Origin: Bacteroidota bacterium
GTDB taxonomy: Bacteria; Bacteroidota; Bacteroidia; B-17B0; Aurantibacillaceae
Direction of reading: 5' to 3'
Length of the DNA stretch: 64,000 nt
Assembly (NCBI GenBank): GCA_017303905.1
Contig: JAFLBH010000001.1
Span: 248,001 to 312,000 of the forward strand
Shown here: piece by piece, positions 8,486 through 29,967 of the stretch
Layout of the letters: each line of letters opens with the position of its first letter
How positions within the stretch are numbered: position 1 is the first letter of the stretch
Notes under the pieces: generated by a model
Database searches by the model: none
Told to the model about the DNA's origin: nothing
The model's input: the letters and a program-made list of their open reading frames with translations, nothing else
Translations under genes and position numbers: made by a program

Positions 8486-10705
8486 ATGCCTACCATTAAA
8501 ACCACATTTCCAGTTACAGGTATGAGCTGCGCGTCTTGCGCGGTGAGCGTAGAAAGTATGCTCGCTGCTCAGAAAGGTGTATTGTCAGCCGCCGTCAACT
8601 TTGCTACAGGTAATGTGATGGTTGAATACAATCCCGATGCCATCACGCCTGCACAAATGAAAAGCACCGCGCAAAGCATTGGCTACGATATTGAAATTAC
8701 TGCCAACGAAGACGCGCAAAAACAAATTGAAGAAATCAAACTCAAACAACACCAACAACTGCGTTTCAAAACTTTTGCTTCTATCGCACTAGCTATTCCT
8801 CTCATTATTGTCGGCATGTTTTTTATGCATGCACCTTACGCGAACTACATCACCTGGATTTTAGCAACGCCTATTGTTATCGTTTTCGGGCGACAATTTT
8901 TTATTAACGCCTGGAAACAAACTAAAAATAAATCAGCGAATATGGATACATTGGTGGCACTGAGCACCGGTGTCGCTTATTTATTCAGTGTGTTTAATAC
9001 GCTGTATCCTCAATACTGGCATCAAAAAGGCTTACATGCACAAGTGTATTTTGAAAGTGCCGGAGTAGTCATCGCATTTATTTTATTGGGGAAATATTTA
9101 GAAGACAATGCCAAAGCGAATACCTCTACAGCGATTAAAAAATTAATGGGACTCCAACCCAAAACAGTTTTGAAAATAAATACAGATGGCACCGAGCAAA
9201 ATATTCCGATTGCGCAAGTGAATATCAACGATGTATTATTGGTAAAACCGGGTGATAAAATTCCGGTGGATGGCATTGTAAAATCAGGAAGTTCGGCCAT
9301 CGATGAAAGTTCCATTACCGGTGAACCTATTCCCGCCGAAAAACATCAGGGCGATAAAGTATTCGCGGGCACCATCAATCAAAAAGGTTCTTTACAAATC
9401 GTCGCGCAAAAAGTGGGCGACCAAACTGTCTTGTCGCAAATTATTAAAATGGTGCAGGAAGCACAAGGCAGCAAAGCGCCCGTACAAAAACTCGTCGACA
9501 AAATTGCGGCTGTGTTTGTACCGAGCGTTATTGCCATTGCTATTCTTACTTTTATTGTGTGGATGATTTTCGGTGGAGAAAACGCATTTACACACGCTTT
9601 GCTTTCCATGATTACAGTACTTGTGATTGCTTGTCCATGCGCTTTAGGATTAGCTACACCAACTGCCATTATGGTGGGAATAGGAAAAGGCGCCGAGCAT
9701 GGCATTTTAATTAAGGATGCGGAAAGTTTAGAGCAAAATAAAAACATTGACACTATTATTCTTGATAAAACAGGCACCATTACAGAGGGAAAACCAACCG
9801 TGACTGATTTAATCTGGAAAGAAAATAGTGATGTGATTCAGTATGCCGCGATATTGTTTTCCATAGAACAACAATCCGAACATCCTTTAGCGGATGCCGT
9901 AACAAAACATTTGACGGCAAGTAAATCTAATCCCATTACGTTTGAAAAATTTGAAAGCATCACCGGAAAAGGCGTTGCCGCGGTGAAAAATCAAAAAGCA
10001 TATTTAGTAGGGAATAAAACACTAATGCTCGATAAAGGCGTTATGATCTCCGGACAAGAACAAAACACGATTGATCAATTATTAAATCAAGCTAAAACAG
10101 TTATACTCTTCGCGGAAGAAAAAACATTAATCGCCATTCTCGCCATTAGCGATAAAATAAAAACAAGTTCTGCTTCAGCGATACAACAATTCAAAGACTT
10201 GGGCATAGAAGTATACATGCTCACCGGTGATAATGCAAAAACCGCGAAAGCCGTTGCGGATGCCGTTGGTATTTCTCATTATCAATCGGAAGTACTTCCA
10301 TCCGATAAATCCGCTTTTATAAAAGAATTACAGAGTAAAGGAAAAAGAGTAGCGATGGTGGGTGACGGTATTAACGATTCGCAAGCACTCGCGCAAGCGG
10401 ATGTAAGCATCGCCATGGGTAAAGGTTCCGACATAGCGATTGATGTGGCTAAAATAACAATCATTTCTTCCGACTTGTCTTTAATTCCGAAAGCAATTCG
10501 CCTTTCTTCGCAGACCGTTAGTGTGATTAAGCAAAATTTATTCTGGGCCTTTATTTATAACGTCATAGGAATTCCTTTAGCCGCCGGAATTCTCTACCCT
10601 GTTAATGGTTTTTTACTCGACCCTATGATTGCGGGCGCGGCGATGGCACTCAGTTCCGTGAGTGTAGTAAGTAATAGTTTATTATTGAAATTGAGAAAAC
10701 TTTAA
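8486..10705 (+). CDS. copA: copper-translocating P1B-type ATPase
   Basis: Exports Cu+ across the inner membrane at the cost of ATP. The 739-residue protein has one N-terminal heavy-metal domain with GMSCASC (12-18), paired membrane helices (about 95-145 and 165-210), the actuator motif SSITGEPIP, the transmembrane metal site CPC in IACPCALGLATP (383-385), the phosphorylation site DKTGTITEGKP (D427), the P1B His-Pro in SEHPLADA, MLTGDNAKTAKAVA and the hinge GDGINDSQAL (626-631). CPC with a CxxC domain indicates copper or silver. The start is the ATG at 8486, not the TTG 12 nt upstream, which lies in the promoter box. The next gene begins 2 nt after its stop. Confidence 0.95.
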   Translation: MPTIKTTFPVTGMSCASCAVSVESMLAAQKGVLSAAVNFATGNVMVEYNPDAITPAQMKSTAQSIGYDIEITANEDAQKQIEEIKLKQHQQLRFKTFASIALAIPLIIVGMFFMHAPYANYITWILATPIVIVFGRQFFINAWKQTKNKSANMDTLVALSTGVAYLFSVFNTLYPQYWHQKGLHAQVYFESAGVVIAFILLGKYLEDNAKANTSTAIKKLMGLQPKTVLKINTDGTEQNIPIAQVNINDVLLVKPGDKIPVDGIVKSGSSAIDESSITGEPIPAEKHQGDKVFAGTINQKGSLQIVAQKVGDQTVLSQIIKMVQEAQGSKAPVQKLVDKIAAVFVPSVIAIAILTFIVWMIFGGENAFTHALLSMITVLVIACPCALGLATPTAIMVGIGKGAEHGILIKDAESLEQNKNIDTIILDKTGTITEGKPTVTDLIWKENSDVIQYAAILFSIEQQSEHPLADAVTKHLTASKSNPITFEKFESITGKGVAAVKNQKAYLVGNKTLMLDKGVMISGQEQNTIDQLLNQAKTVILFAEEKTLIAILAISDKIKTSSASAIQQFKDLGIEVYMLTGDNAKTAKAVADAVGISHYQSEVLPSDKSAFIKELQSKGKRVAMVGDGINDSQALAQADVSIAMGKGSDIAIDVAKITIISSDLSLIPKAIRLSSQTVSVIKQNLFWAFIYNVIGIPLAAGILYPVNGFLLDPMIAGAAMALSSVSVVSNSLLLKLRKL

Positions 10706-10706
10706 T

Positions 10707-11060
10707 ATGTCGAATACCCAAACAGAAGTTGCGGAAAAAACGGAAACACTCGTCAGCGCTGAACGCCAAACCATTGTGCATTGTACTTGCGGTGATACCT
10801 ATGCCTACCGCGTTTGGCCCAGCACTTTTTTAATTGAACACGGCACAGGCAAGCGTGCCAAATTAATTACGGCCTTTAATATTTCCTTCGCGCCACAATG
10901 GACTTACAACGACGGCAAAGGATTTACACTCATATTTGAGGGTTTGAGCAAAGAATGCTCCTTGTTTGATTTAGTAGAAATCATTCCCCAAGACGGTGGC
11001 TTCGAATACAAAAACATTGTCCGCAATAACAGCGATGTTTACACAATTGAACTTAGTTAA
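10707..11060 (+). CDS. small protein of unknown function, co-transcribed with copA
   Basis: A 117-residue soluble protein with no signal peptide. The ATG comes one base after the copA stop, so the two are almost certainly in one operon and may be translationally coupled. The sequence contains one CTCG pair of cysteines (about 27-29) and a further Cys near residue 80, and looks like a small beta-rich domain. The cysteines and position make a metal-related role conceivable, but this is only inference and I do not recognise the family. Confidence 0.75.
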   Translation: MSNTQTEVAEKTETLVSAERQTIVHCTCGDTYAYRVWPSTFLIEHGTGKRAKLITAFNISFAPQWTYNDGKGFTLIFEGLSKECSLFDLVEIIPQDGGFEYKNIVRNNSDVYTIELS

Positions 11061-11106
11061 ACGCTATTTAAGTTTAAGATTACCGTTTTAACGAGTGAAT
11101 CTTTTC

Positions 11107-11114
11107 TATTTTTG
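11107..11114 (+). promoter_or_regulatory. candidate promoter of the T9SS cargo gene
   Basis: TATTTTTG matches TAnnTTTG; TTTT at 11086-11089 could serve as the -33 element with a 17 nt spacer. The leader to the ATG at 11165 would be about 45 nt. Confidence 0.45.
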
Positions 11115-11164
11115 AGTAAGCATCGTCGATACAATTTACATTTTTCTTAATTTCACTCTCACAA

Positions 11165-12376
11165 ATGAAAACAACTATAAAATATTGCGTGTTGCCACTC
11201 TTAATTTTTTCTTCTTTAGCGAATGCTCAGGAATTAAAAACAATAACCCTGGATGATGGCACCAAAGTTGACGCCTCCACCTATTCCTTTATCGCCGATG
11301 TTGACAACAATAAATTAATGAGTCCGATGGCCTGTGCTTCGGGTTCAAACCTTGTTACTTTTTACGCTACGAATAATGCGCAACGCGGACACATGTTTGA
11401 TATTTATGCGAACAATTGTGTAACGATTAATTGTTTTGAAATGAATTTCAGCGCAGGAACATCCAATGTTGAAATTTATACGAAAACCGGTACTCATGTT
11501 GGTTTCACCAATAACGCTGCCGCCTGGACCTTAATCGGCACCGCCTTGAATGTTGCATCGGCCGGAGTAAATGTGCCAACGTCTATTCCAATTAACGTGA
11601 ACCAAATTATCGCCACCGGTGCTATTCGTGCCTTTTACATTACACGAACTACTTTAAGCGGACCAACTGTAGCTTATACCAACGGAACAGCTGTAGGAAA
11701 TACACTTGCCTCTGATGCTAACATAATTTTGCGTGAAGGAACCGGAAAAGAATATCCCTTCTCTACTAATTTTACACCGCGTCAGTTTAATGGAAGGGTG
11801 TTTTATACTGTAAATCCTCCTTGTGTGTTACCAATTGAATTAAAGGAGTTCAATGCCGTTCCAAAAGGAAATGGCGTTGACATTAATTGGTCAACCGCCA
11901 CAGAAACCAATAACGATTATTTCACCATTGAACGTTCACGCAACCTGGAACAATTTGAAGCCATTCAACAAGTGCCCGGGTCTGGTAACAGTTATACCAC
12001 TAAATATTATTCATACACCGACAAACAACCGCTGCAAGGTTTATCCTACTACCGCATTAAACAAACCGATAAAGACGGAAAGTATAGCTACTCCGAATTA
12101 AAAGCCGTAGGTTATCAGCGTAATTTATCCAACGTTTCGGTGAGTCCGGTACCAACACAAAAAAGTATTTTAGTTTCATTTAACGCGATTGAAAAAGGAA
12201 ACTATACTTTAAATATTTACAATGTGGAAGGCAAATTAATGCTTAGCAAGGATCTTAACGCTGAAAACGGCATTAACGATAATTCCATTGATGTAAGTGA
12301 ACTGCCTTTGGGAATTTATCAATTAATGCTTAGCAATGGCGTAGAATTAGAACACGCCAAGTTTATTAAAGAATAA
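11165..12376 (+). CDS. secreted protein with T9SS type A sorting domain
   Basis: A 403-residue exported protein. A signal peptide (about 1-21, ending SLANAQ) leads into an N-terminal beta-rich region of unknown function (about 25-215). The segment PIELKEFNAVPKGNGVDINW (about 220-240) starts the fibronectin-like beta domain that commonly precedes a T9SS tail, with DYFTIERSRN and SYYRIKQTDKDGKYSYSE. The last 80 residues (VSVSPVPTQKSILVSF to LEHAKFIKE) have the type A C-terminal domain pattern (P-N/V-P motif, YNVEGKLM, LPLGIYQL), which directs passage through the type IX secretion system and attachment to the surface. The N-terminal role is not recognisable. Confidence 0.85.
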   Translation: MKTTIKYCVLPLLIFSSLANAQELKTITLDDGTKVDASTYSFIADVDNNKLMSPMACASGSNLVTFYATNNAQRGHMFDIYANNCVTINCFEMNFSAGTSNVEIYTKTGTHVGFTNNAAAWTLIGTALNVASAGVNVPTSIPINVNQIIATGAIRAFYITRTTLSGPTVAYTNGTAVGNTLASDANIILREGTGKEYPFSTNFTPRQFNGRVFYTVNPPCVLPIELKEFNAVPKGNGVDINWSTATETNNDYFTIERSRNLEQFEAIQQVPGSGNSYTTKYYSYTDKQPLQGLSYYRIKQTDKDGKYSYSELKAVGYQRNLSNVSVSPVPTQKSILVSFNAIEKGNYTLNIYNVEGKLMLSKDLNAENGINDNSIDVSELPLGIYQLMLSNGVELEHAKFIKE

Positions 12377-18318: not shown

Positions 18319-18343
18319 ATTTATCTCACAAAATGAGATAAAT
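18319..18343. promoter_or_regulatory. probable operator of the XRE regulator
   Basis: A perfect inverted repeat with 10 bp arms, ATTTATCTCA and TGAGATAAAT, separated by 5 bp (CAAAA), 38 bp upstream of the XRE gene. It covers the place where a -33 element would lie relative to the candidate -7 box TACCTTAG (18357-18364). That is the arrangement expected of a dimeric HTH repressor or controller acting on its own promoter and on the downstream restriction operon. Confidence 0.65.
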
Positions 18344-18380: not shown

Positions 18381-18587
18381 ATGAACCGAATCAAAGAAAT
18401 TTTGGAAGAAAAAGGTTTAACCCAAACCTGGCTATCCGAAAAATTAGGTAAGAGTTATAATATGGTGAATTCATATGTGCAAAACAGAAGACAACCGAGT
18501 ATCGAGGTATTATTTGAGATTGGAAAAATTTTGAAATCAGACCCAAGAGAACTTTTAGTAGTTAAATTAAAGAAAAAAGAACAATAA
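18381..18587 (+). CDS. XRE-family helix-turn-helix regulator (68 aa)
   Basis: A single-domain Cro/CI-type DNA-binding protein. LTQTWLSEKLGKSYNMVNSYVQNRRQPSIEVLFEIGKIL contains the five-helix HTH pattern, with the recognition helix around SYNMVNSYVQNRRQPS (about 26-41). At 68 residues it has no ligand or oligomerisation domain, which matches the controller (C) proteins of restriction-modification systems. It precedes hsdM by 6 nt and is probably the first gene of the operon. It likely binds the inverted repeat at 18319-18343, delaying or limiting expression of the restriction genes when the island enters a new cell. Confidence 0.9.
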   Translation: MNRIKEILEEKGLTQTWLSEKLGKSYNMVNSYVQNRRQPSIEVLFEIGKILKSDPRELLVVKLKKKEQ

Positions 18588-18593
18588 TATTAT

Positions 18594-20600
18594 ATGTCCA
18601 AACAACATCAAGATCATACAAATCTCATCTGGCAAATTGCCGAATTACTTCGTGGACCATATAGACCTCCGCAGTACGAACGTGTAATGTTACCATTAAC
18701 AGTCCTCAGACGATTTGACTGCGTATTAGAAACTACTAAGCCAGCAGTATTAGCCAAATATGAAAAGCTCAAAGCGGGAAAATTGAAGGGCGAAGCATTG
18801 GATACAATGCTCAATAAAGTTTCAGGCCAGAAATTTCATAATCATTCAAAGCTGTCATTTGAAAAAATGAAGGGTGCCCCGGAAACTATTGCACGTGATC
18901 TTGTGAGTTATATCCGTGGGTTTTCTAGTAACGTTCAGCGCATCTTCGACTATTTTGATTTTGAAAGGGAGATTGAGAAAATGAATGAAGCTAATATCCT
19001 ATACCTCGTTGTTTCTCAATTCAGCAATGTTGATTTACACCCAAAAAGAAAAGATGGAACAGGAGTTGATAATATTGAGATGGGGCAAATTTTTGAACAT
19101 TTGATTCGAAAATTTAATGAAATTGCAAATGAAACGGCTGGGGATCACTTTACACCACGTGAAGTAATTAAAGTGATGGTGAACATGCTTTTCATAAATG
19201 ATGATGACTTGCTTTCAAAGCCCGGCACAATTCGCAAAATGCTTGATCCTACTTGTGGAACTGGCGGAATGTTAGCCGAAGCGCAGGCATATTTAAAGGA
19301 TCATCATCCAGATGCGATTTTATATGCATACGGACAGGACTATAACAAACGCGCCTTTGCTACTGCAGCTTCCGATATGCTCATCAAAGAAGTAGCGCAC
19401 AATGGTGCAGGCGAAAATATCCAATATGGAGACAGTTTAATTGATGATAAGTTTGAAGGTTATCATTTCGATTACCTCATTGCTAATCCTCCCTTTGGAG
19501 TGGACTGGAAAAGACAACAAGCTGAAATCACCAGACAACACGAAAAGCTTGGATACTCTGGACGTTTCGGAGCTGGGCTCCCGAGAGTGAATGATGGTGC
19601 CCTACTTTTTTTGCAACACATGATCAGTAAGTTTGAGCCAGTGGATGAAAAAAATAAGAAATTCGGGTCACGTCTTGCTGTGGTGTTCAGTGGATCGCCG
19701 ATGTTTAGTGGTGGTGCAGGTTCCGGAGAAAGTAATATCAGGCGATGGATCATAGAAAGTGATTGGCTGGAAGCTATCATTGCTTTGCCAGAGCAAATGT
19801 TTTATAACACAGGTATCGGTACTTATATCTGGATTGTGACAAATCGTAAAGAAAAAAGGCGAACAGGAAAAATTCAACTTATTGATGCACGTGAATATTA
19901 TATCCAAATGAAACGAAGCTTGGGAAACAAGCGCAGGAAAATTGGCGAAAAAGAAGAAGGTGAACCTGACCAAGTTGGAGACATTGTTAGGTTGTATGGT
20001 AAATTTCAAGACAATAAGCATTCTAAAATTTTCAACAATACAGATTTTGGATATACTCGGGTTACAGTTGAACGTCCTCTTCGATTGCGTTACGAAATGA
20101 CATTGGAAGACAAATCTCGTTACTTGGATGCTTTCCCACATTTGCTAGATGATATTCAGCAGATTGATAAGGAACTAGGACGAAAACCTCTTTTGGACTG
20201 GAACGAAGCTTCTAAAAAAATAGACAAAATACTCAAGAGCAATGAAAGCAAGTGGAAAGCGAATGAATGGAAGCAATTCCGTGAAGTATTTACGCATACC
20301 GACCCCAAAGCAATAGAAGTAAGAATAGGGAAAAATGAATTTGAAGCAGATGCTGCTTTAAGAGATTTTGAAAATGTTCCTTTAGAACAGGATATTGATT
20401 CCTACTTTAAAACAGAAGTGCTGCCTTATGTGTCCGATGCTTGGATGGACAGAAGTAAAGACAAAGTAGGTTTTGAAATTAATTTTAATAATCACTTCTT
20501 TAATTATCCAAAACCAAAAGAATTAAAAGTAATTGATGAGGAACTAAAAACTGTACAAAATGAAATTCTTAGGCTTTTAAATTCAACAATTAAAAAATAG
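18594..20600 (+). CDS. hsdM: type I restriction-modification methyltransferase subunit HsdM
   Basis: Adenine-N6 DNA methyltransferase of 668 residues. The N-terminal HsdM helical domain (about 1-160) starts with TNLIWQIAELLRGPYRPPQYERV. The SAM-binding motif I is LDPTCGTGGML (from residue 217) and the catalytic motif IV is NPPFG (from residue 298), both preceded by ETAGDHFTPREVI, which is nearly invariant in HsdM. The C-terminal 200 residues are longer than in the shortest HsdMs and end in a helical tail likely to contact HsdS. With HsdS it protects host DNA; with HsdR it restricts. hsdS begins 4 nt after its stop. Confidence 0.95.
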   Translation: MSKQHQDHTNLIWQIAELLRGPYRPPQYERVMLPLTVLRRFDCVLETTKPAVLAKYEKLKAGKLKGEALDTMLNKVSGQKFHNHSKLSFEKMKGAPETIARDLVSYIRGFSSNVQRIFDYFDFEREIEKMNEANILYLVVSQFSNVDLHPKRKDGTGVDNIEMGQIFEHLIRKFNEIANETAGDHFTPREVIKVMVNMLFINDDDLLSKPGTIRKMLDPTCGTGGMLAEAQAYLKDHHPDAILYAYGQDYNKRAFATAASDMLIKEVAHNGAGENIQYGDSLIDDKFEGYHFDYLIANPPFGVDWKRQQAEITRQHEKLGYSGRFGAGLPRVNDGALLFLQHMISKFEPVDEKNKKFGSRLAVVFSGSPMFSGGAGSGESNIRRWIIESDWLEAIIALPEQMFYNTGIGTYIWIVTNRKEKRRTGKIQLIDAREYYIQMKRSLGNKRRKIGEKEEGEPDQVGDIVRLYGKFQDNKHSKIFNNTDFGYTRVTVERPLRLRYEMTLEDKSRYLDAFPHLLDDIQQIDKELGRKPLLDWNEASKKIDKILKSNESKWKANEWKQFREVFTHTDPKAIEVRIGKNEFEADAALRDFENVPLEQDIDSYFKTEVLPYVSDAWMDRSKDKVGFEINFNNHFFNYPKPKELKVIDEELKTVQNEILRLLNSTIKK

Positions 20601-20604
20601 TTAT

Positions 20605-21213
20605 ATGCAAATAATCAGATTAAAATATCTATTTGAAAAAAGAATTGGAGGCGCTTGGGGAGAAGAACCCGAAATCAACAACTCTTATGTTTGCATTAGA
20701 GCCGCTGATTTCTTAACTGATAAAATTGCGCACAAAACAACTGACTTGACCCGAAGAAGTTTCAAAACAGAAGAAATTGAAAAGAAACAACTGAAAGAAG
20801 GAGACATCATAGTAGAAAAATCAGGCGGTGGTGAAAATCAACCTGTAGGTAGAGTTGTTTTGTTTTCATTAGACGAACCTGCACTTTGTTCGAATTTCCT
20901 TGAAATTTTAAGGCCAAACTTAAATATTCTTGACCCTAAATATGGGGCGTACTTATTGTATTCTTTATGGGCCAGCCGCATCACAACCAAATCAATTAAA
21001 CAAACAACTGGCATTCAAAATTTGGACTTATCTGAATTTTTGGATAACAAAGTTGTTTTGCCTAGCATTTCGGAACAAAGGAAAATAGTTGATAATTTGG
21101 AGACGGAAATATTGCAAATTGATACTATGTATAAACATACGTTAAAATCACTAGAGTTGCTAGAAGAAAGAAAATCATCGTTGATTATAGAAAAATTACC
21201 AGGTCAAAAATAA
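20605..21213 (+). CDS. hsdS: half-length type I specificity subunit HsdS (single target-recognition domain)
   Basis: Only 202 residues, about half the usual 380-450. It contains one target recognition domain (about 1-150; IIVEKSGGG and ALCSNFLEILRPN are typical TRD strands, and QTTGIQNLDLSEFLDNKVVLP ends the domain) and one conserved helical spacer (about 155-198; PSISEQRKIVDNLETE and LLEERKSSLI, the standard HsdS coiled-coil ends). A second TRD is absent, and no remnant of one is found before the next start 4 nt later. Known half-S proteins work as homodimers and read symmetric split sites, so this may do the same. A truncation is the alternative. The gene lies in frame with intact ends, which favours a working half subunit. 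Confidence 0.85.
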   Translation: MQIIRLKYLFEKRIGGAWGEEPEINNSYVCIRAADFLTDKIAHKTTDLTRRSFKTEEIEKKQLKEGDIIVEKSGGGENQPVGRVVLFSLDEPALCSNFLEILRPNLNILDPKYGAYLLYSLWASRITTKSIKQTTGIQNLDLSEFLDNKVVLPSISEQRKIVDNLETEILQIDTMYKHTLKSLELLEERKSSLIIEKLPGQK

Positions 21214-21216
21214 ATT

Positions 21217-22518
21217 ATGCAAATTAAAAAAATTACGCTCACTAACTTTAGAGCATACGAATATGCTGAGTTCAATTTTAAGGAAGGAATGAACTTATTA
21301 GTTGGTGTAAACGGCGCTGGTAAATCCTCCGTTTTGGACGTTCTAAATGTGTGCTTATCGGTTATTTTTTCTAACATTTCAGAAGCAAAGGTTAAAAGGC
21401 TAAGTTTCTCAAACGATGACATTAGTCTTGGAGCTACACGTTTACAGGTTTCATGTAATTTTACATATTTGAGTGTTAACTATAATTTATTGATTGAAAA
21501 AAACAAAGAGCGAAGGATTCTAACCATTAAGCCGGAAGAAGAGGAAGGGTTAAAAAAGAAAAGAAGAACTAAAGCAAAAGTAGAGAACATTTTTATTGAT
21601 GATCAAGTAGTATTTACACCCCAGTTCAAATTACGTTCAAAGAAGCTCAGTCAATTAGGAAATGAATCAATAGCGGTACTGTTCTCAACTAAGCGCTCTC
21701 TGATTACTAGAGAAATTCCAAGTAAAACAGCCATTGCAGGTGGCTTAGCCGCTGCTTATTCAGAAGCTTTTAGTGCAGATAGATTTTTCAATTTACGAAT
21801 TTTTTCTGATTGGTATAAAGTACAGAAAGTATTATCTAAAGAAAAGAGCAAAACAAAAAAACACGTCTCAACTTTAGACAGAGCAATAGAGCTATTTTTG
21901 CCCGGCTTTAATAATCTTAGAGTGCATTCTGATCGACGCCAAACTGAATTCTATATTGACAAGAATAACAAAAACTTCAAGTTGCGACAATTATCTGACG
22001 GCGAAAGGGGAATGATAGCTTTAGTTTTTGATATTGCGCGGAGAATATCCCAGGCGAATCCAACAAGTTCAGACCCGTTATCAGAAGGAAATGGAATTGT
22101 ACTTATAGATGAACTTGATTTGCATCTACATCCCAAATGGCAAAGGACTATTGTGGAAAATCTGTCAAACACATTTCCAAAAATACAGTTTATAGCCACT
22201 ACACATTCTCCACAAATTATTCCTTCGATTGAACCAGAAGGAATTCAATTAATAGAAAGTGGGGCGGTCGTTATACCAGATCGGTCTTTGGGAATGGATT
22301 CGAATTGGATTTTAAGAAATCTTTTGGACTCCGAGGACAGACCGGTAAAATCTTTAAAAGCAATTAAGTCGGTTGAAGAGTTAATTAATACAGGTGAGCT
22401 AATTAAGGCAAAATTGGCAATAAAGAATTTTAAAGAGAAAGGGTCCTTAGATTTAGCCGAATGGGCGACACTTGAAGCTCGCATTTCAAAACTAGAAATA
22501 CTGAAAGGAGAAAAGTGA
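21217..22518 (+). CDS. ptuA: Septu-like ATPase PtuA (AAA/SMC-type), inside the type I operon
   Basis: A 433-residue ABC/SMC-class ATPase. It opens MQIKKITLTNFRAYEYAEFNF, the usual start of RecF/OLD-like ATPases. Walker A is GVNGAGKSS (30-38), the signature-like motif LSDGERG is at 259-265, Walker B is GIVLIDELDLHLHP with D298 and E299, and the switch histidine is in TTHSP (H330). There is no TOPRIM nuclease domain, so it is not an OLD nuclease; nuclease activity must come from the partner. Its stop overlaps the GTG start of the HNH nuclease gene by 4 nt (GTGA). An AAA_21-type ATPase followed directly by a TIGR02646-like HNH protein is the Septu (PtuA-PtuB) arrangement. No reverse transcriptase is present, so this is not the retron Ec78 form. 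Confidence 0.8.
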   Translation: MQIKKITLTNFRAYEYAEFNFKEGMNLLVGVNGAGKSSVLDVLNVCLSVIFSNISEAKVKRLSFSNDDISLGATRLQVSCNFTYLSVNYNLLIEKNKERRILTIKPEEEEGLKKKRRTKAKVENIFIDDQVVFTPQFKLRSKKLSQLGNESIAVLFSTKRSLITREIPSKTAIAGGLAAAYSEAFSADRFFNLRIFSDWYKVQKVLSKEKSKTKKHVSTLDRAIELFLPGFNNLRVHSDRRQTEFYIDKNNKNFKLRQLSDGERGMIALVFDIARRISQANPTSSDPLSEGNGIVLIDELDLHLHPKWQRTIVENLSNTFPKIQFIATTHSPQIIPSIEPEGIQLIESGAVVIPDRSLGMDSNWILRNLLDSEDRPVKSLKAIKSVEELINTGELIKAKLAIKNFKEKGSLDLAEWATLEARISKLEILKGEK

Positions 22519-23243
22519 AAAGAATATTAAAGGCTGGCTCTCCCAAACAATATTCTGATTGGGTAAAAAACATGAAAGGTCAGGAAAACGAACATTATCA
22601 TTCGCTTCAGAATCCTGAAAAAGGAATTCTTCACGATACATTATTGAGTGAACAAGGATCTTTGTGCGGATATACCATGAAAAGAATTAGTAGAACAACC
22701 TCACATATAGAGCATATAAAGCCCGAGGTTGTTTGTCGGGCCGAACAGAAGGGATTAGATTTGGACTATGTTAACCTAATTGCATGTTACCCTAAAGAAG
22801 GCATGAAAGCAAGTTGTAGATATGGTGCTCAGGAAAAAGGATCTTGGTGGGATGATAATGGCAGAGATTTTATTTCACCACTATTAAGCAATTGTGAATC
22901 TGTTTTTACTTTCAATATCAAAGGCGAAATCGGTTGTGTGGCGAATAACCTGCGCGCAAAGAAAACCATTGAAGTTTTGAAGCTGGACAATAAAGAGCTC
23001 ACCGAGGATCGAAGAAGGGCAATAGACGAGTTCTTGTATGGCGAAAATTTAAATTCACCTATAAGTAAAGGTGAAGCCACTAGAATTAAAAGCGAAGTTG
23101 AAAAAAGGAAGAATGATGGCAGCTTCGTTGAGTACTGTGTAACAATAAAACATGCTTTAGGTCATTATATCGAGTTGCTTGATAAAAATTCGAAGCAAAA
23201 GAAGTTTGCGTCTAAAAGCATAAGAAAACAAAAGAGAAAATGA
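22515..23243 (+). CDS. ptuB: Septu-like HNH endonuclease PtuB
   Basis: A 242-residue nuclease. The HNH core is CGYTMKRIS (51-59), HIEHIKP (H64, E66, H67) and DYVNLIACYP (N87), with the large spacing between the second His and Asn typical of TIGR02646/PtuB. Many relatives have a second Cys at the position of T54 (CxYC), so the zinc site may be altered here. In Septu, PtuA ATPase holds PtuB inactive until phage infection, then PtuB cleaves nucleic acid. The start is GTG at 22515, overlapping ptuA; the 3' end overlaps hsdR by 4 nt (ATGA). The two overlaps tie its translation to both the ATPase and the restriction subunit. The Lys-rich C-terminus (KKFASKSIRKQKRK) may bind nucleic acid. Confidence 0.8.
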   Translation: MKRILKAGSPKQYSDWVKNMKGQENEHYHSLQNPEKGILHDTLLSEQGSLCGYTMKRISRTTSHIEHIKPEVVCRAEQKGLDLDYVNLIACYPKEGMKASCRYGAQEKGSWWDDNGRDFISPLLSNCESVFTFNIKGEIGCVANNLRAKKTIEVLKLDNKELTEDRRRAIDEFLYGENLNSPISKGEATRIKSEVEKRKNDGSFVEYCVTIKHALGHYIELLDKNSKQKKFASKSIRKQKRK

Positions 23244-26200
23244 GCAACAAAATCCTAAAAGAAATCTCCTTCGAAACAGTGATTGAAAATTGTTTATTGG
23301 AAAGTGGCTATCAAACCATAAACAAAGCAGGTTTCGATAAAGAACGGGCCATTTTCCCGAAAACTGTTTTAGACTTTATTCGTGCCACCCAATCCATTGA
23401 GTGGCAAAAGTTGGAGACTCTTTTAGGCGCCAACACTGAAGAACAAGTATTAAGTGATTTATGCAAATGGCTAGATACTTATGGCTCACTTACCACGTTA
23501 CGACATGGTTTTAAATGCTATGGTAAGCAATTGCAGGTGGCCTTTTTCAAAGCATCCCATACAATGAACCCGGAGCTTGAAACCAATTACACAAAAAATA
23601 TTTTGGGATTAACAAGGCAGCTGCAATATTCCACACGAAACAATAATTCATTGGATGTTACTTTAAGTGTCAATGGAATACCAGTCATCACCTTAGAGCT
23701 CAAAAACCCATTGACAGGTCAAAATGTTGAGCACGCTAAAGTTCAATATAAAAATGACCGCGATCCTCGTGAAATAATCTTTGAATTCAAACGCAGAACA
23801 CTGGTTCATTTTGCGGTAGATACAGAACAAGTATACATGACAACTCGTTTAGCCGGTCCAGCAACTTACTTTCTACCTTTTAATAAAGGAAATGAAGGTG
23901 GGGCAGGAAATCCGCCCGACAAAGAGGGACGTACTTATAGAACAGCTTATTTGTGGGATGAAGTTTTACAACGTGACAGCCTATTTGATATTCTAGCCAG
24001 ATTTATACACCTACAGGTTGAGGAAAAATTGACTGATGAAGGTCGCAAGATTAAAAAAGAGACAATGGTCTTTCCACGTTTTCATCAATTACAAGCTGTT
24101 CGTAATTTAATTCGTGCTGCCGGACAAGATGGTGTTGGAAATAATTATTTAATTGAGCATTCGGCTGGAAGCGGAAAGAGTAATACTATTGCATGGCTCG
24201 CACATCGACTTGCCTCTCTTCATCATTCTGATAACAGAAAGGTTTTTAATTCTGTAATTGTAATTACCGACCGCGTCGTCCTTGATAAACAGTTGCAGGA
24301 TACAATTTACCAATTTGAACATAAGCAAGGTGTTGTCCAAAAAATTGATGAAAATTCAAAGCAGTTGGCAGAGGCGTTGGAAAATTCTGTTCCTATCATT
24401 ATTACCACTCTACAAAAATTTCCTTTTGTCTCAAACCAATTACTGAAGTTGGCAGAAGAGCGTGGGCAAAAAGGTAGTGGTGTTTTGCAAACCAAACGGT
24501 TTGCTGTTTTAGTAGATGAAGCCCATAGCTCGCAAAGCGGTGAAACATCAGCAGATCTGAAAGAGGTTTTGGGTGGAAATGAACTGGTTGAAGAAGCTAA
24601 AAGGAAAGCGCAAGAAGAAGGCTTGGAACACTTGGAGGAATTGTATCGCAGTATGGCTAAACGGGGAAAACAAGACAACCTTAGTTTTTTTGCTTTCACT
24701 GCGACACCAAAGCACAAAACTTTGGCGGTTTTCGGCGATAAAGGTAAACCTTTTCATAAATACACCATGCGTCAAGCCATAGAGGAGGGTTTTATCATGG
24801 ATGTATTGAAGAATTACACTACGTATGCTACTTATTACAAATTGATAAAATCAAGTGAAGAAGATCCGCAGGTAGAGCGTAAAAAAGCTGCCAAGGCTCT
24901 TGCCAGATTTTTGAAATTACACCCACATAACATCACGCAAAAAACAGAGGTAATGGTTGAGCATTTCTATGCGGTTAGTCGTCATAAAATTGGTGGCCAT
25001 GCTAAAGCCATGGTCGTTACTGGCTCACGCCTCGAAGCGGTAAGATACAAGGAGAGTTTTGATGCTTACATTAAAAGCAAAGGTTATCCGATAAAATCAC
25101 TTGTTGCATTTTCAGGAATTGTGACAGACGATAAAGTGAAAGATAAAACTTATACTGAAGAAGGCATGAACAATGGAATTAAGGAACGTGAATTACCTGA
25201 AAAATTTGCTTCACCTGACTACAATGTGTTGTTAGTGGCAGAAAAATATCAAACGGGATTTGATCAACCATTGCTTCATACTATGTATGTAGATAAGCGC
25301 CTTTCTGGAATTCAAGCTGTACAAACACTATCACGACTGAACCGTATCCATCCTCTGAAGGAAGATACTTTTGTTTTGGATTTTGTGAATGACAGAGAGG
25401 AAATACGCCAATCCTTTAAAACCTATTACGAAGGCGCTGAAATTGGAGAAGAAGTTGACCAGGCTCACTTGTATCAAATTCAAATTGAACTCGACCAATG
25501 TAATATCTACATGAAGGAAGATATTGAACGGTTCTGTTCCATCTACTTTAAACCGAAGCAAAAACAAAGTGCAGCGGATCATGAGGCATTAAATGCTGCA
25601 TTAGATCCGGCAGTTTCCCGTTTTTCGACATTATTGAACTCAAAAGAAGAAGAGGCAGAATTAATCAGAGGTAAAATCGGCTCATTCAAAAATCTATATA
25701 GTTTTCTTAGTCAGATCATACCATATCAAGATAGTGATTTAGAAAAACACTTCGTCTATTATCGCCACTTGTCCGCCAAATTACCTCATAGAAAATCGGC
25801 CCCCAATTATACATTTGACGATACAATACGGTTAGAATACTATAGACTTCAGAAAATCAGCGAGGGGTCTATCTCACTTAAAGAAGGGACGCCATATAAA
25901 CTAGATGGGCCCACAGATGTAGGCACTGGCTCAGTAAGAGAGCCGGAAGTTCCGCTTTCCAAATTAGTAGATATCGTTAATGAGCGCTTTGGAACAGATT
26001 TTAATCAAGCGGATCAATATTTCTTCGATCAAATTGTAGAAACTGCAATTCTTGATGAAAGTTTGATGAAAGCAGCGGAAGTAAATCCAGAAGACAAATT
26101 TGAATTGGTGTTTAAAAATCTGTTAGAGAAACTATTTATTGAACGTATTGATCAGAACGAAGATATTTTTGAACGTTATATGAATGATGCGCAATTTCAA

Positions 26201-26260
26201 AAACTAGTAACTGCATGGTTAGCATCACAGGCTTATTCTAAATTAAGAACAAAGAAATAA
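23240..26260 (+). CDS. hsdR: type I restriction subunit HsdR (translocase and nuclease)
   Basis: A 1006-residue motor-nuclease. The N-terminal PD-(D/E)XK domain has SLDVTLSVNGIPVITLELKN (E153, K155). The helicase core has Walker A HSAGSGKSNTIAW (S308-S314), DEAHSSQ (D426-H429) and FTATPKHKTLAVFG, followed by QTGFDQPLLHTMYVDKRL and QTLSRLNR (motifs V and VI). A C-terminal helical domain (about 750-1006) would bind HsdM/S. It translocates DNA past the enzyme and cuts at a distance from an unmethylated site. It starts at the ATG overlapping the ptuB stop and ends the tightly coupled part of the operon; the next gene starts 53 nt later. Confidence 0.95.
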   Translation: MSNKILKEISFETVIENCLLESGYQTINKAGFDKERAIFPKTVLDFIRATQSIEWQKLETLLGANTEEQVLSDLCKWLDTYGSLTTLRHGFKCYGKQLQVAFFKASHTMNPELETNYTKNILGLTRQLQYSTRNNNSLDVTLSVNGIPVITLELKNPLTGQNVEHAKVQYKNDRDPREIIFEFKRRTLVHFAVDTEQVYMTTRLAGPATYFLPFNKGNEGGAGNPPDKEGRTYRTAYLWDEVLQRDSLFDILARFIHLQVEEKLTDEGRKIKKETMVFPRFHQLQAVRNLIRAAGQDGVGNNYLIEHSAGSGKSNTIAWLAHRLASLHHSDNRKVFNSVIVITDRVVLDKQLQDTIYQFEHKQGVVQKIDENSKQLAEALENSVPIIITTLQKFPFVSNQLLKLAEERGQKGSGVLQTKRFAVLVDEAHSSQSGETSADLKEVLGGNELVEEAKRKAQEEGLEHLEELYRSMAKRGKQDNLSFFAFTATPKHKTLAVFGDKGKPFHKYTMRQAIEEGFIMDVLKNYTTYATYYKLIKSSEEDPQVERKKAAKALARFLKLHPHNITQKTEVMVEHFYAVSRHKIGGHAKAMVVTGSRLEAVRYKESFDAYIKSKGYPIKSLVAFSGIVTDDKVKDKTYTEEGMNNGIKERELPEKFASPDYNVLLVAEKYQTGFDQPLLHTMYVDKRLSGIQAVQTLSRLNRIHPLKEDTFVLDFVNDREEIRQSFKTYYEGAEIGEEVDQAHLYQIQIELDQCNIYMKEDIERFCSIYFKPKQKQSAADHEALNAALDPAVSRFSTLLNSKEEEAELIRGKIGSFKNLYSFLSQIIPYQDSDLEKHFVYYRHLSAKLPHRKSAPNYTFDDTIRLEYYRLQKISEGSISLKEGTPYKLDGPTDVGTGSVREPEVPLSKLVDIVNERFGTDFNQADQYFFDQIVETAILDESLMKAAEVNPEDKFELVFKNLLEKLFIERIDQNEDIFERYMNDAQFQKLVTAWLASQAYSKLRTKK

Positions 26261-26313
26261 TTCGAAATGAATTCTGCTTTTTTTAATCGTTCAGAATAAA
26301 ATATAATTTCCTA

Positions 26314-27939
26314 ATGACTCCTGAATTTTTCACAGCAGATAATATTGCACTCCTAAATAGATGGGGAAGTGTTATCTATAATAAGAAAAATGCCCTTCAA
26401 AAGCAAGCAGTAAAGAGTATTATGGACGAGGTTTGGGAGCCAAGCTATTATTGGGCAAGGCAAATTTGCGAAAATAATTCAGGTTATTCTTTTAAGGGTA
26501 GAGCTAATTGGAAAGAAGGTGCCGGACCGGGGAAATTTAAATTTAAGCACTATACTTGGTATAAAATTTTCCCAACAGGATCATTTCATCCTGAACTTTA
26601 TTTTACGGTTGGTGTTGATGGCAAGCATGATGCTTTAATCATTAAAATAGATTTCCAGAGAGAGAGCTCTGAATTTTTAAACTCTGCGCAAAAAAAGTAT
26701 CTTAATTCAAAGGTCGATCGAAACCTCGGGGGGCCTTACTGGACAAAAATTCCTGCGACAGATCTAAGTAATTATAATTGGGAAAGCCTGATAGATTTTT
26801 CCAACAATTTTATTAGAAAACACATTCCTTTATTCAATGAAATTTCCGTAATACTTCAAAATTTATCGTTAGAACATAGGATAGCTCGCCTTGCTTGGAA
26901 TAGTAATGGCTGGCTTTTTCCTTCAGGTCAAGACGGCAAATCAACAGATAAAAAATCGCATGAATTCAAATACGGTTATGGTCATGAAGAGTGGTTGTTT
27001 GACTTGAATAAGAAATACAAAGGATATCATTACGGCTTTTTAGAGCCAATTAGAAAGCAACAGAATGCATTTATAGGTAATCAATATAAAGTGTGGCTCT
27101 ATACAATTGACGGAGTAACAAAGAAACGATACTTCGTGGGAAACATAGAAAGGATCGAGGTATTAACTAAAGAACAAGCAGAAGAAGTTAAACTGGAATA
27201 TAAGAAACGGGGATGGCTAAAGGAAATGGAAGATCAAATTCCAAGAGTCAATAAAAATCATAAAGGATTCTCAGGATACAAAGGTTTAGATATTTTTAAT
27301 ATTCGTTTTAAAAGTCAAGACCTCAAGGATTACGAGCCCTATCTTGAATTACCAGGTAGTCACCCTATATATAAGCAATCTCGATATGTTTTTGGTCGTT
27401 ATGATGAATCATTTGATATCGAAAATTATGAAGTAGATGATTTTTCATTAGAAGATTCTAATGTTGATGATGACTCAGAAGATTATAAGAAAGTAAAAAA
27501 GAAGACTTATAAAAGGGAACCCAAAGCAATTCAAATTACATATCTACACGAGGCAATTAGTAAGCAATTGACGAAACACCTTAAATCAATTTATGGAAAA
27601 AATAAAGTTTGGCGTGAAAAGAATGCCGGATATGGTTCAAATAGGATAGATATTGTTGTAGAAACTCAAAATAGAGTTATTTTTTATGAAATTAAAACAT
27701 ATAATAATGTTAGAACTTCGATTCGAGAAGCAATTGGTCAATTGCTTGAGTACTCATGTTGGCCAAATAAAAGAAAAGCTCAAGAATTTGTAATTATTAC
27801 ACAACCAGTTTCAAACACTAAAAAAGCTATAGAATATTTGAAACATCTTAATTCCATCATGAGTATTCCGGTTTTCTACCAAAACTTTGACGTAGAGACA
27901 AACCTTCTTTCTGAGAGGAATTTGATAAATGTAGAATAA
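26314..27939 (+). CDS. unknown protein with C-terminal PD-(D/E)XK nuclease domain
   Basis: A 541-residue protein. The last 130 residues form a recognisable nuclease: GSNRIDIVVETQNRVIFYEI places D446 and E459-x-K461, followed by the helix SIREAIGQLLEYS, the layout of the PD-(D/E)XK fold (Card1/VRR-like in style). The first 400 residues match no family I know; they are rich in aromatic residues (WEPSYYWARQ, HYTWYKIFPTG, RLAWNSNGWLFPS) and may be a sensor or DNA-reading domain. An acidic stretch (VDDFSLEDSNVDDDSEDYKK, about 372-391) links the halves. Same strand, 53 nt after hsdR. Probably a restriction or abortive-infection effector; that is inferred from fold and location. Confidence 0.75.
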   Translation: MTPEFFTADNIALLNRWGSVIYNKKNALQKQAVKSIMDEVWEPSYYWARQICENNSGYSFKGRANWKEGAGPGKFKFKHYTWYKIFPTGSFHPELYFTVGVDGKHDALIIKIDFQRESSEFLNSAQKKYLNSKVDRNLGGPYWTKIPATDLSNYNWESLIDFSNNFIRKHIPLFNEISVILQNLSLEHRIARLAWNSNGWLFPSGQDGKSTDKKSHEFKYGYGHEEWLFDLNKKYKGYHYGFLEPIRKQQNAFIGNQYKVWLYTIDGVTKKRYFVGNIERIEVLTKEQAEEVKLEYKKRGWLKEMEDQIPRVNKNHKGFSGYKGLDIFNIRFKSQDLKDYEPYLELPGSHPIYKQSRYVFGRYDESFDIENYEVDDFSLEDSNVDDDSEDYKKVKKKTYKREPKAIQITYLHEAISKQLTKHLKSIYGKNKVWREKNAGYGSNRIDIVVETQNRVIFYEIKTYNNVRTSIREAIGQLLEYSCWPNKRKAQEFVIITQPVSNTKKAIEYLKHLNSIMSIPVFYQNFDVETNLLSERNLINVE

Positions 27940-27978
27940 TAAAAAATCAAAATAAATAATCACTGAGAACGATATTTT

Positions 27979-28917
27979 ATGCCTATACCAAAACACAACG
28001 AGTTAAGAGTTCCTGTACTCGAATTCTTAAAAAAGAATGGGGTTTCTACAACTAAAGAAATGGTTATCCCATTAAGTGAGTATTTTAGATTGAACCCCGA
28101 AGAGGTTAGTCAAATGTATGAGTCCGGTAACGGTCCAATATTTAGGGATAGGATTTCATGGGCTATAACTTATCTTGGGTTTACTGACTTAATTTCAAAA
28201 CCTAAACGAGGCGTGTATGAAATTACGCCGAAAGGAATTGAGATGCTTAAAACACCAGAAAAGATAGAGGAATACGTCGATGTGGCAGCAGCAGCAAGAG
28301 ATTCTCTTAAATCGAATTCGGAATCAACTACTTCAGATTCTATCACTACTGAAATTACATCAAAATCCGAAAAGGCAACCCCTCAGGAAAAATTATACCA
28401 GTCTTATGCAAACATAAAGAAGACAACCAAAGACGAAATATTAGAAACTATTTTGAGTAAAACTCCTGGGGATTTTGAAAAGCTGGTAGTTTCGTTATTA
28501 CAACGAATGGGTTACGGAGGAGAAATAAAGGATTCCGGCACTGTTACAAAAGCAACCAATGATAAAGGAATAGATGGCATTATTAAAGAAGATATTCTTG
28601 GCTTAGGTCGAATTTACATTCAATCTAAGCGATATGCCCTAGATAACTCAATTGGCAGAGAAGAAATACAAAAGTTTGTTGGAGCCTTAGCTGTGGCTCA
28701 ATCAAATAAAGGTGTATTTATAACTACCTCGAGCTTTAAAAAAACAGCCATTGATTATGTTAATTCATTAAATGGAGCTACAACTATTGTCTTAATAGAT
28801 GGAGAGCAGCTAGCAGAATACATTTATGAATTTGAGCTTGGAATGCAAGTAGAACAAGTAATTAAAATTAAAAAGCTGGATAGCGATTTTTGGGATGCTA
28901 TGCAGGATGATGAATAA
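27979..28917 (+). CDS. mrr: Mrr-type restriction endonuclease
   Basis: A 312-residue methyl-directed restriction enzyme. The N-terminal winged-helix domain (about 1-92; VPVLEFLKKNGVSTTKEMV to KRGVYEITPKGIEML) is the Mrr DNA-reading domain. A Ser/Thr-rich linker follows (about 105-130). The C-terminal nuclease domain (about 155-300) has DFEKLVVSLLQRMGYGG, DKGIDGII (D199) and IQSKRY (Q215, K217), the Mrr variant of PD-(D/E)XK with Gln in place of Glu. It cuts foreign methylated DNA. Beside a type I system this gives defence against both unmodified and wrongly modified DNA. It starts 39 nt after the previous stop, and the next gene follows 6 nt after its own stop. Confidence 0.92.
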   Translation: MPIPKHNELRVPVLEFLKKNGVSTTKEMVIPLSEYFRLNPEEVSQMYESGNGPIFRDRISWAITYLGFTDLISKPKRGVYEITPKGIEMLKTPEKIEEYVDVAAAARDSLKSNSESTTSDSITTEITSKSEKATPQEKLYQSYANIKKTTKDEILETILSKTPGDFEKLVVSLLQRMGYGGEIKDSGTVTKATNDKGIDGIIKEDILGLGRIYIQSKRYALDNSIGREEIQKFVGALAVAQSNKGVFITTSSFKKTAIDYVNSLNGATTIVLIDGEQLAEYIYEFELGMQVEQVIKIKKLDSDFWDAMQDDE

Positions 28918-28923
28918 TATATT

Positions 28924-29967
28924 ATGGAGAAAAAGACGTGTTTTATTATAATGCCATTCACTAAGGTGAAAGCGACTAACCTTGATTTGGATGAAAAGAC
29001 TTTGACTTATATTTATGAAAACATGATATACAAAGCCGTCTCCGATTTCAAACTAAAGAATCGTAAAGTATTTAACGAAATATCTAGGTACAATTCAAAA
29101 ATCGGCTCCATAATATCAGGAATTACACGTAATTTAAATGAATCAGATTTAGTCATTGCCGATCTTACAGGACTTAATCCAAACGTAATGTATGAGTTGG
29201 GTGTTCGTCATACTTTAAAAAGGGGGACAATTATTATAACCCAAGATATTACATCGATACCTTCTGATTTAAGAGATTATATGTGTGTTGAATATAAGTA
29301 TTCAGCAAATACCATAGAACAACAAGACAATTATGATCACTTTAAAGTTGATCTACACAAATCTATAAACGAACTATTTCAAACGAATAAGTTTGATTCG
29401 CCTGTTTTAAGTTATTTAAAAGGTAAAGAAAAATACTGGCATGAAGACGAGCTAAAAATATTTAAGACAAACTTAATAATTTCGAAATACTTATTTCAAA
29501 ATTTCAATGATGTAGTTCAAATTGTAAATGATATAGACAAAAAGCAGACAAATATTCCATTATCTATAATAAATGCTCTTCTTAATAACATTAGTAACGC
29601 ACTGAATGATTTAAATATTTCATTCGAAGACCTTAATCTATATGAAGATTTACAAAACGCAAAGGCCATTCTTCAAGAAGTCTTAAAGAAGGCATTCATA
29701 ACTGATTATTTCGGAAGTATTTTTAATCAAATTCCTGATGATGAATCAAAAAAATATTTTCCTAGTATATTAAATATAAACGATAAATCATTCTTAAATC
29801 ATTTTGAGCTTTATTCTGGAAAATATGAACAAGTAAGTTTCAAGGAAATTTTCTCGAATAAAGGAGATTTTTATAAAATATTCTTATTGTCTCTTGAAGA
29901 ATATATTGATGATAAAATACTAGAATTTAAAATTTCTAATAAGGAATTAAAGAAGATAATTCAATAA
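28924..29967 (+). CDS. nucleoside deoxyribosyltransferase/TIR-like N-domain protein with unknown C-terminal domain
   Basis: A 347-residue protein, 6 nt downstream of mrr. The first 145 residues have the Rossmann-like fold of nucleoside 2-deoxyribosyltransferases and TIR-like domains: CFIIMPF (6-12), SDLVIADLTGLNPNVMYELG (74-93) with the likely catalytic E91, then a conserved strand GTIIITQD. The ADLTGxNPNVxYELG motif is common in prokaryotic conflict proteins that bind or cleave nucleotide substrates such as NAD. The remaining 200 residues are helical, Asn/Lys-rich and unrecognised. Position at the end of a defence operon makes an effector or nucleotide sensor likely, but the reaction is not known. 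It is the last AT-rich gene; TspO follows in different base composition. Confidence 0.75.
   Translation: MEKKTCFIIMPFTKVKATNLDLDEKTLTYIYENMIYKAVSDFKLKNRKVFNEISRYNSKIGSIISGITRNLNESDLVIADLTGLNPNVMYELGVRHTLKRGTIIITQDITSIPSDLRDYMCVEYKYSANTIEQQDNYDHFKVDLHKSINELFQTNKFDSPVLSYLKGKEKYWHEDELKIFKTNLIISKYLFQNFNDVVQIVNDIDKKQTNIPLSIINALLNNISNALNDLNISFEDLNLYEDLQNAKAILQEVLKKAFITDYFGSIFNQIPDDESKKYFPSILNINDKSFLNHFELYSGKYEQVSFKEIFSNKGDFYKIFLLSLEEYIDDKILEFKISNKELKKIIQ

Follow-up and report, generated by a model that had tools for sequence, protein, structure and literature searches.

A Septu-like gene pair, ptuA and ptuB, lies between hsdS and hsdR of a type I restriction-modification (RM) operon in a 64,000-nucleotide stretch of a Bacteroidota bacterium genome (GenBank assembly GCA_017303905.1, contig JAFLBH010000001.1, positions 248,001 to 312,000; hereafter, the window). 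This raises the question of whether the pair is a part of the RM system or an independent defence that shares its operon. The first-pass annotation of this DNA described hsdM, hsdS, ptuA, ptuB and hsdR on one strand, with a GTGA overlap between ptuA and ptuB and an ATGA overlap between ptuB and hsdR. Open reading frame (ORF) reading and family searches bore out this description, and the GTG start of ptuB was found within the ptuA stop. As described below, the locus is well supported, from comparison of sequences, as a composite defence cassette in which a dedicated Septu sublineage is held between hsdS and hsdR of a type I RM system. The Septu pair and the RM system probably function, or at the least move between genomes, as a single composite system.

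The identity of the five proteins was established by family searches. HsdM matched Pfam N6_Mtase (1.7e-52) and HsdM_N (4e-21); HsdS matched Pfam Methylase_S (3.3e-9), with EcoKI HsdS as the closest solved structure (3e-8); and HsdR matched Pfam HSDR_N (6e-14) and SWI2_SNF2 (3e-27), together with a TIGR00348 match of 6.6e-58 that nevertheless fell below the NCBIfam cut-off. By these three subunits and their catalytic motifs, the window encodes a type I RM system, in which HsdS is of half size. PtuA matched the PADLOC PtuA family (5e-114), and its closest solved structures by sequence were retron and Septu PtuA proteins (6e-49 to 4e-33). PtuB matched PADLOC PtuB (1.7e-58) and NCBIfam TIGR02646 (72 bits, cut-off 52), and all 11 Protein Data Bank (PDB) matches with E <= 0.001 to its AlphaFold2 model (mean predicted local distance difference test score, pLDDT, of 93) were PtuB proteins of retron Ec78/Ec83 or Septu. 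The listed top PDB matches of the PtuA model were all PtuA; since this model is of moderate quality (mean pLDDT 77), its fold evidence is secondary to that from sequence.

We next consider where relatives of this PtuA are found. When species genomes were scanned with a PtuA profile, at least 580 stretches were confirmed; the best 80 of these were kept as a sample, and the contexts of the kept loci were read from the DNA. All 16 of the best matches among these 80 (L105-L120) lay inside hsd operons, and 15 of the 16 had the complete order hsdM-hsdS-ptuA-ptuB-hsdR, the exception being L110. The first-pass annotation had proposed searching genomes for exactly this order, and had made its composite idea depend on whether relatives of the pair occur with hsd genes; the idea survives, as the closest ptuA relatives in the sample were all within type I hsd operons. 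Embedded members came from Pseudomonadota, Cyanobacteriota, Chloroflexota, Acidobacteriota, Gemmatimonadota, Chlorobiota, Myxococcota and the window's own phylum, that is, at least eight phyla, the last of them taken to be Bacteroidota in the wide GTDB sense, where Chlorobiota is included. Because the same gene order recurs across these phyla, the arrangement is not due to chance.

The embedded PtuAs also stand together in phylogeny. In a maximum-likelihood tree of 89 PtuAs, 27 embedded rows formed one clade (starred in the tree), and the embedded or free label changed twice, as compared to a mean of 26.7 changes when labels were shuffled; the second change came from a free row, L036, on a long branch. 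In a reduced tree, from which we chose to remove the long-branch rows L036, L104 and L173 and in which free near-duplicates were thinned, 31 of 31 embedded rows fell on one side of a single branch (SH-like approximate likelihood ratio test, 98) versus 41 free Septu or retron PtuAs, a figure to be read with that removal in mind. This clade is not a stand-alone one, with all 31 sampled members in hsd operons and most of them between hsdS and hsdR, a departure from the two-gene Septu locus in setting and not in the proteins. The clade is further marked by the signature LS[DE]GER, present in 29/29 embedded rows in which the motif was found, as compared to LSxGEK in 49 of 55 free rows. Judged by tree and distribution, the embedded PtuA is a dedicated, horizontally spread Septu sublineage.

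The catalytic residues of the cassette have been retained. Walker A K36 and Walker B D298/E299 of PtuA were invariant in 27 of 27 embedded sequences, as were H67 and N87 of PtuB in 26 of 26, and the PtuB of locus L067 reads as an HNH PtuB. HsdM carried NPPF and CGTGG in all 26 complete embedded operons, while the HsdR motifs were present in 26 (DEAH-type and TATP), 25 (GSGKS) and 24 (EL[KR]N) of the 26. The exceptions are few and confined to HsdR, and all enzymes of the composite appear to be maintained by selection.

The RM partner is likewise restricted. In an HsdR tree, 25 of 25 HsdRs from ptuAB operons fell within one starred clade of 30 rows; these operons were mostly gathered via PtuA and hence identify the partner clade, not its rate of ptuAB carriage. 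In a context-blind, HsdR-led sample from the window's phylum, ptuAB was present in four of the nine resolved operons of this clade, the window included. Among 72,556 plasmid records, PtuA matches above 160 bits occurred only in four records of Ketogulonicigenium vulgare, all with an hsdR of the same family, and the one record that was read contained the same five-gene operon, whose HsdM and HsdR were 67% and 70% identical to those of the window and whose PtuA and PtuB were 36% and 33% identical. Over the 26 complete operons, distances correlated at 0.69 between PtuA and HsdM, 0.63 between PtuA and HsdR and 0.57 between PtuA and PtuB, as compared to 0.90 between HsdM and HsdR. Thus, three things can be read from sequence: the composition of the cassette, the intact motifs and the fact that, in the sample, the PtuA clade is linked exclusively with a single HsdR clade. 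The linkage, the single HsdR clade with its correlated distances, the kept motifs and the plasmid matches together support a composite system.

Other observations weigh against a close union of the two parts. Over the same 26 operons, mean identity was 70% for HsdR, 63% for HsdM, 37% for PtuA, 31% for PtuB and 31% for HsdS, so that PtuA and PtuB evolve much faster than HsdM and HsdR. The window PtuA groups with cyanobacterial and Chloroflexota operons and the window HsdR with others. Embedded ptuB genes (L033, L105-L123 and others) were of at least three sequence types, out of step with the PtuA tree, which suggests that ptuB has been exchanged between operons. The mixed ptuB types and the discordant grouping of PtuA and HsdR would therefore reflect exchange of cargo within the clade, and, given also the fast evolution of PtuA and PtuB, no tightly conserved interface is evident. 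Moreover, five of the nine operons in the HsdR-led sample, all from one Chlorobiaceae-like family, carry other cargo; because the same HsdR clade does so in these five genomes, the RM system can do without ptuAB. Finally, L110 (Planktothricoides, match at 10001-11230) consists of hsdM-hsdS-ptuA-ptuB, with no detectable hsdR within 21 kb. This locus offers a natural test of whether PtuAB depends on HsdR.

These points bear on an explanation in which ptuAB is Septu cargo that works independently: it would have promoter, regulator and mobility in common with the RM system, yet depend on Hsd proteins neither physically nor for its regulation. The space between hsdS and hsdR would then be a cargo slot, and selection would keep co-transfer and co-expression. 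In related operons the slot is indeed seldom empty, and other cargo occupies it in the same and related HsdR clades, including an M78 peptidase with DUF4411, a DEAD helicase, a 23S_rRNA_IVP-like protein, RloA/RloB, SLFN AlbA_2 and FRG; the peptidase with DUF4411, the helicase and the 23S_rRNA_IVP-like protein were among the slot cargo of the near RM relatives from the Chlorobiaceae-like family (L069-L072, L044). Such unrelated cargo mostly has the same 4-nt overlaps, and gene overlap was rejected as proof of a composite. Of the claim in the first-pass annotation that strict coupling with hsdR indicates one composite system, the conclusion thus draws support from the confinement of the relatives to hsd operons in the sample, and the overlap argument falls away. 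Published systems point in the same direction as the varied cargo: DarTG2 occupies the same slot (PMC12255303), and TgvAB, likewise a pair set within a type I operon, protects independently of HsdR activity (PMC11411939). However, independent cargo predicts repeated exchange with free Septu, whereas the sampled PtuAs of this lineage, from at least eight phyla, all fall on a single branch that contains no free member, and they stay with one HsdR clade. We regard independence of the pair, the main rival explanation, as possible, if on balance doubtful.

A second capture of ptuAB cuts both ways. In a Tn7-like element on a plasmid of Enterobacter sp. MGH 14 (L188:2925-12297), hsdM-hsdS-ptuA-ptuB-hsdR is followed by a gene for a SprT-family metalloprotease. 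The HsdR of this element is unrelated to that of the window (23% identity over a part), and its PtuA is of the free type and groups with a free Paraburkholderia PtuA. E. coli relatives of this pair were read in two of 187 matching genomes, and in both they lay free at the smrB locus. By these sequence relationships, a different type I system captured free-type ptuAB independently, and ptuAB therefore entered the slot at least twice. Entry of a free-type pair into an unrelated RM system agrees with the view of the slot as a place for independent cargo, and it counts against a strict reading of the pair as locked into one operon. At the same time, the composite, PrrC-like reading draws support from this capture, in which the pair came to lie in the same slot of an unrelated type I system. 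Separately, a plasmid of Phocaeicola dorei (L190:7001-8851) carries a 1851-nt gene annotated as an HNH endonuclease that matches PtuA from its first residue, which suggests a natural PtuA-PtuB fusion.

If the pair and the RM system do work together, a model is provided by PrrC, an NTPase-anticodon nuclease encoded in the order hsdM-hsdS-prrC-hsdR that is associated with HsdR and latent, and that the T4 Stp peptide activates on unmodified DNA (PMC3014915, PMC2610378). The PtuAB pair of retron-Eco7 is toxic on its own, depletes tRNA-Tyr and is held in check by reverse transcriptase (RT) plus msrmsd; retron-Eco4 PtuAB gave no tRNA depletion (PMC11555353), and one E. coli Septu cleaves tRNA-Tyr (PMC13096335). 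The suggestion that ptuAB guards the restriction enzyme gains because prrC sits in the same position and because some PtuAB pairs deplete or cleave tRNA-Tyr. By analogy with PrrC, HsdM and HsdS would methylate self DNA and HsdR would destroy unmodified invading DNA, while PtuAB would be a latent effector of the ABC-ATPase/HNH kind, its activity depending on the state of the DNA-bound RM complex, and that complex acting as sensor and silencer. A phage that blocks or survives restriction would give rise to an altered HsdRMS-DNA complex, or to DNA ends, that releases PtuAB, which might then cleave tRNA (or DNA) and stop the phage together with the cell. Septu targets do vary between tRNA and DNA, which weakens the parallel. 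We consider this PrrC-like mechanism the likeliest of those weighed here, a good possibility that falls a little short of an even chance. The broader proposal of a widespread class of type I RM systems with PtuAB as a built-in effector, in which the HsdMS/R complex senses for and silences a tRNA- (or DNA-)cutting PtuAB, is more tentative.

A different order of events is conceivable, in which PtuAB acts downstream of HsdR and degrades nicks, ends or translocated DNA, with restriction itself as the trigger. The Rad50/SMC-like character of PtuA and the presence of all five genes in one cassette are in keeping with such a sequence. The two characterised PtuAB pairs that act on tRNA-Tyr speak against it, as does the retention of ptuAB without a nearby hsdR in L110, and we find it rather unlikely.

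The cassette has probably reached the window genome horizontally, since, in the genus, family and class samples, no relative gave an HsdR match above 53% identity. The window HsdR is up to 72% identical to HsdRs of ptuAB-bearing operons in distant genomes. The genes flanking the defence region had no match in the seven congeners searched as candidates for an empty-site comparison. Such mobility, with HsdR up to 72% identical across phyla and nothing above 53% in the relatives, and the occurrence of the cassette on a conjugative plasmid would also suit an addiction module, in which the RM complex restrains a PtuAB toxin, daughter cells that lose the operon die and the benefit is persistence more than defence; the toxicity of retron-Eco7 PtuAB without its partner (PMC11555353) fits this as well. 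Given that Chlorobiaceae operons without ptuAB persist, we judge addiction to be very improbable.

The features of the locus are listed in Table 1. A half-size HsdS, an upstream helix-turn-helix (HTH) gene and a 10-bp inverted repeat were additional to the first-pass account. HsdS has 202 aa in the window and 328-513 aa in complete embedded relatives, and its gene is the sole PF01420 gene of the genome. The HTH gene ends 6 nt upstream of hsdM, and it is plausible that it and the inverted repeat are a repressor and its operator. A small upstream regulator of this kind is absent from most embedded relatives: a comparable HTH gene was seen in L116 alone (75 aa, 14 nt upstream of hsdM), and L161 has an upstream HTH gene of another type. 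A conserved upstream regulator is thus unsupported. The five-gene composite is part of a larger defence island. On the same strand downstream of hsdR (26314-29967), a 541-aa protein had no match in family searches, a Mrr-type restriction enzyme is encoded at 27979-28917 (Mrr_cat 4e-31), and a 347-aa protein showed a weak match to a TIR effector.

Table 1. Genes and elements of the ptuAB-containing RM locus (positions in the window)
Feature	Position	Strand	Description
Perfect 10-bp inverted repeat ATTTATCTCA-N5-TGAGATAAAT	18319..18343		Candidate operator; found by repeat search
HTH (XRE-like) gene	18381..18587	+	Candidate repressor/regulator, 68 aa; HTH assigned by eye
hsdM	18594..20600	+	Type I DNA methyltransferase subunit, 668 aa
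hsdS	20605..21213	+	Half-size specificity subunit, 202 aa, one target recognition domain
ptuA	21217..22518	+	SMC/Rad50-like ABC ATPase, 433 aa
ptuB	22515..23243	+	HNH nuclease, 242 aa
hsdR	23240..26260	+	Type I restriction/translocase subunit, 1006 aa

Septu proteins are already known, as are defence genes embedded in type I operons (DarTG2, TgvAB, rlo genes and prrC). A literature search, in which preprints were not covered, turned up no paper describing a Septu lineage restricted to type I operons. The case of PrrC demonstrates that a tRNA nuclease can have an RM enzyme as its tripwire, and a PtuA lineage seen only inside type I operons, in a sample from at least eight phyla, permits a direct test of whether RM systems silence and trigger Septu. 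If they do, the PtuAB effector module would serve at least two unrelated sensors, the retron RT with its multicopy single-stranded DNA (RT-msDNA) and type I RM, and PtuAB under the control of RM would be a counterpart of PrrC reached by convergence. In addition, the results point to the space between hsdS and hsdR as a site at which to search for new defence effectors.

Compared with known systems, the window pair shares with Septu type I both proteins and their order, the gene overlap, the catalytic motifs and the folds predicted. The classical form is a free two-gene system, whereas the window clade lies within type I operons and has the LS[DE]GER motif; in addition, window PtuB has CGYT as compared to CCYC in many PtuBs. 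Retrons of type I-A (Ec78/Eco7 and Ec83) share with the present proposal a PtuAB effector module that is coupled to a distinct sensor and silencer. They differ in that hsdS precedes ptuA in the window and PtuA is shorter, with 433 aa as compared to about 550 aa for that of retron Ec78. The eight genes scanned at 18594-29967 included no RT; msr-msd RNA was not searched for. On the preceding hsdS and the lack of an RT among these genes, a retron was rejected. Septu is tied to another multi-gene system in Hma (PMC8565338; embedding per PMC12255303), although the host there is Hma and not type I RM. Among type I operons, the RptR-RM-DarTG2 island of enteropathogenic Escherichia coli has a two-gene module between hsdS and hsdR and a small upstream regulator gene (PMC12255303), and TgvAB in Vibrio pathogenicity island 2 (VPI-2) is a two-gene defence module within a type I operon (PMC11411939); both have cargo and a regulator different from those of the window.

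PrrC-EcoprrI shares with the window the hsdM-hsdS-X-hsdR slot, an ABC-type NTPase tied to a nuclease and an invariable linkage to type I RM (PMC2610378, PMC3014915). Linkage to type Ic RM systems is invariable among PrrC orthologues and rare for RloC (PMC2610378). PrrC is, however, a single protein with an anticodon nuclease domain, whereas the window has two proteins and an HNH nuclease, so that the nuclease parts are not homologous. Homology to PrrC itself fails, with PtuA scoring 25.3 bits against AAA_13 (PF13166; cut-off 36) and the nuclease being a separate HNH protein. The characteristic PrrC-type trait, linkage to a type I RM operon, is nonetheless present in 31 of 31 members of the PtuA clade, most of them between hsdS and hsdR.

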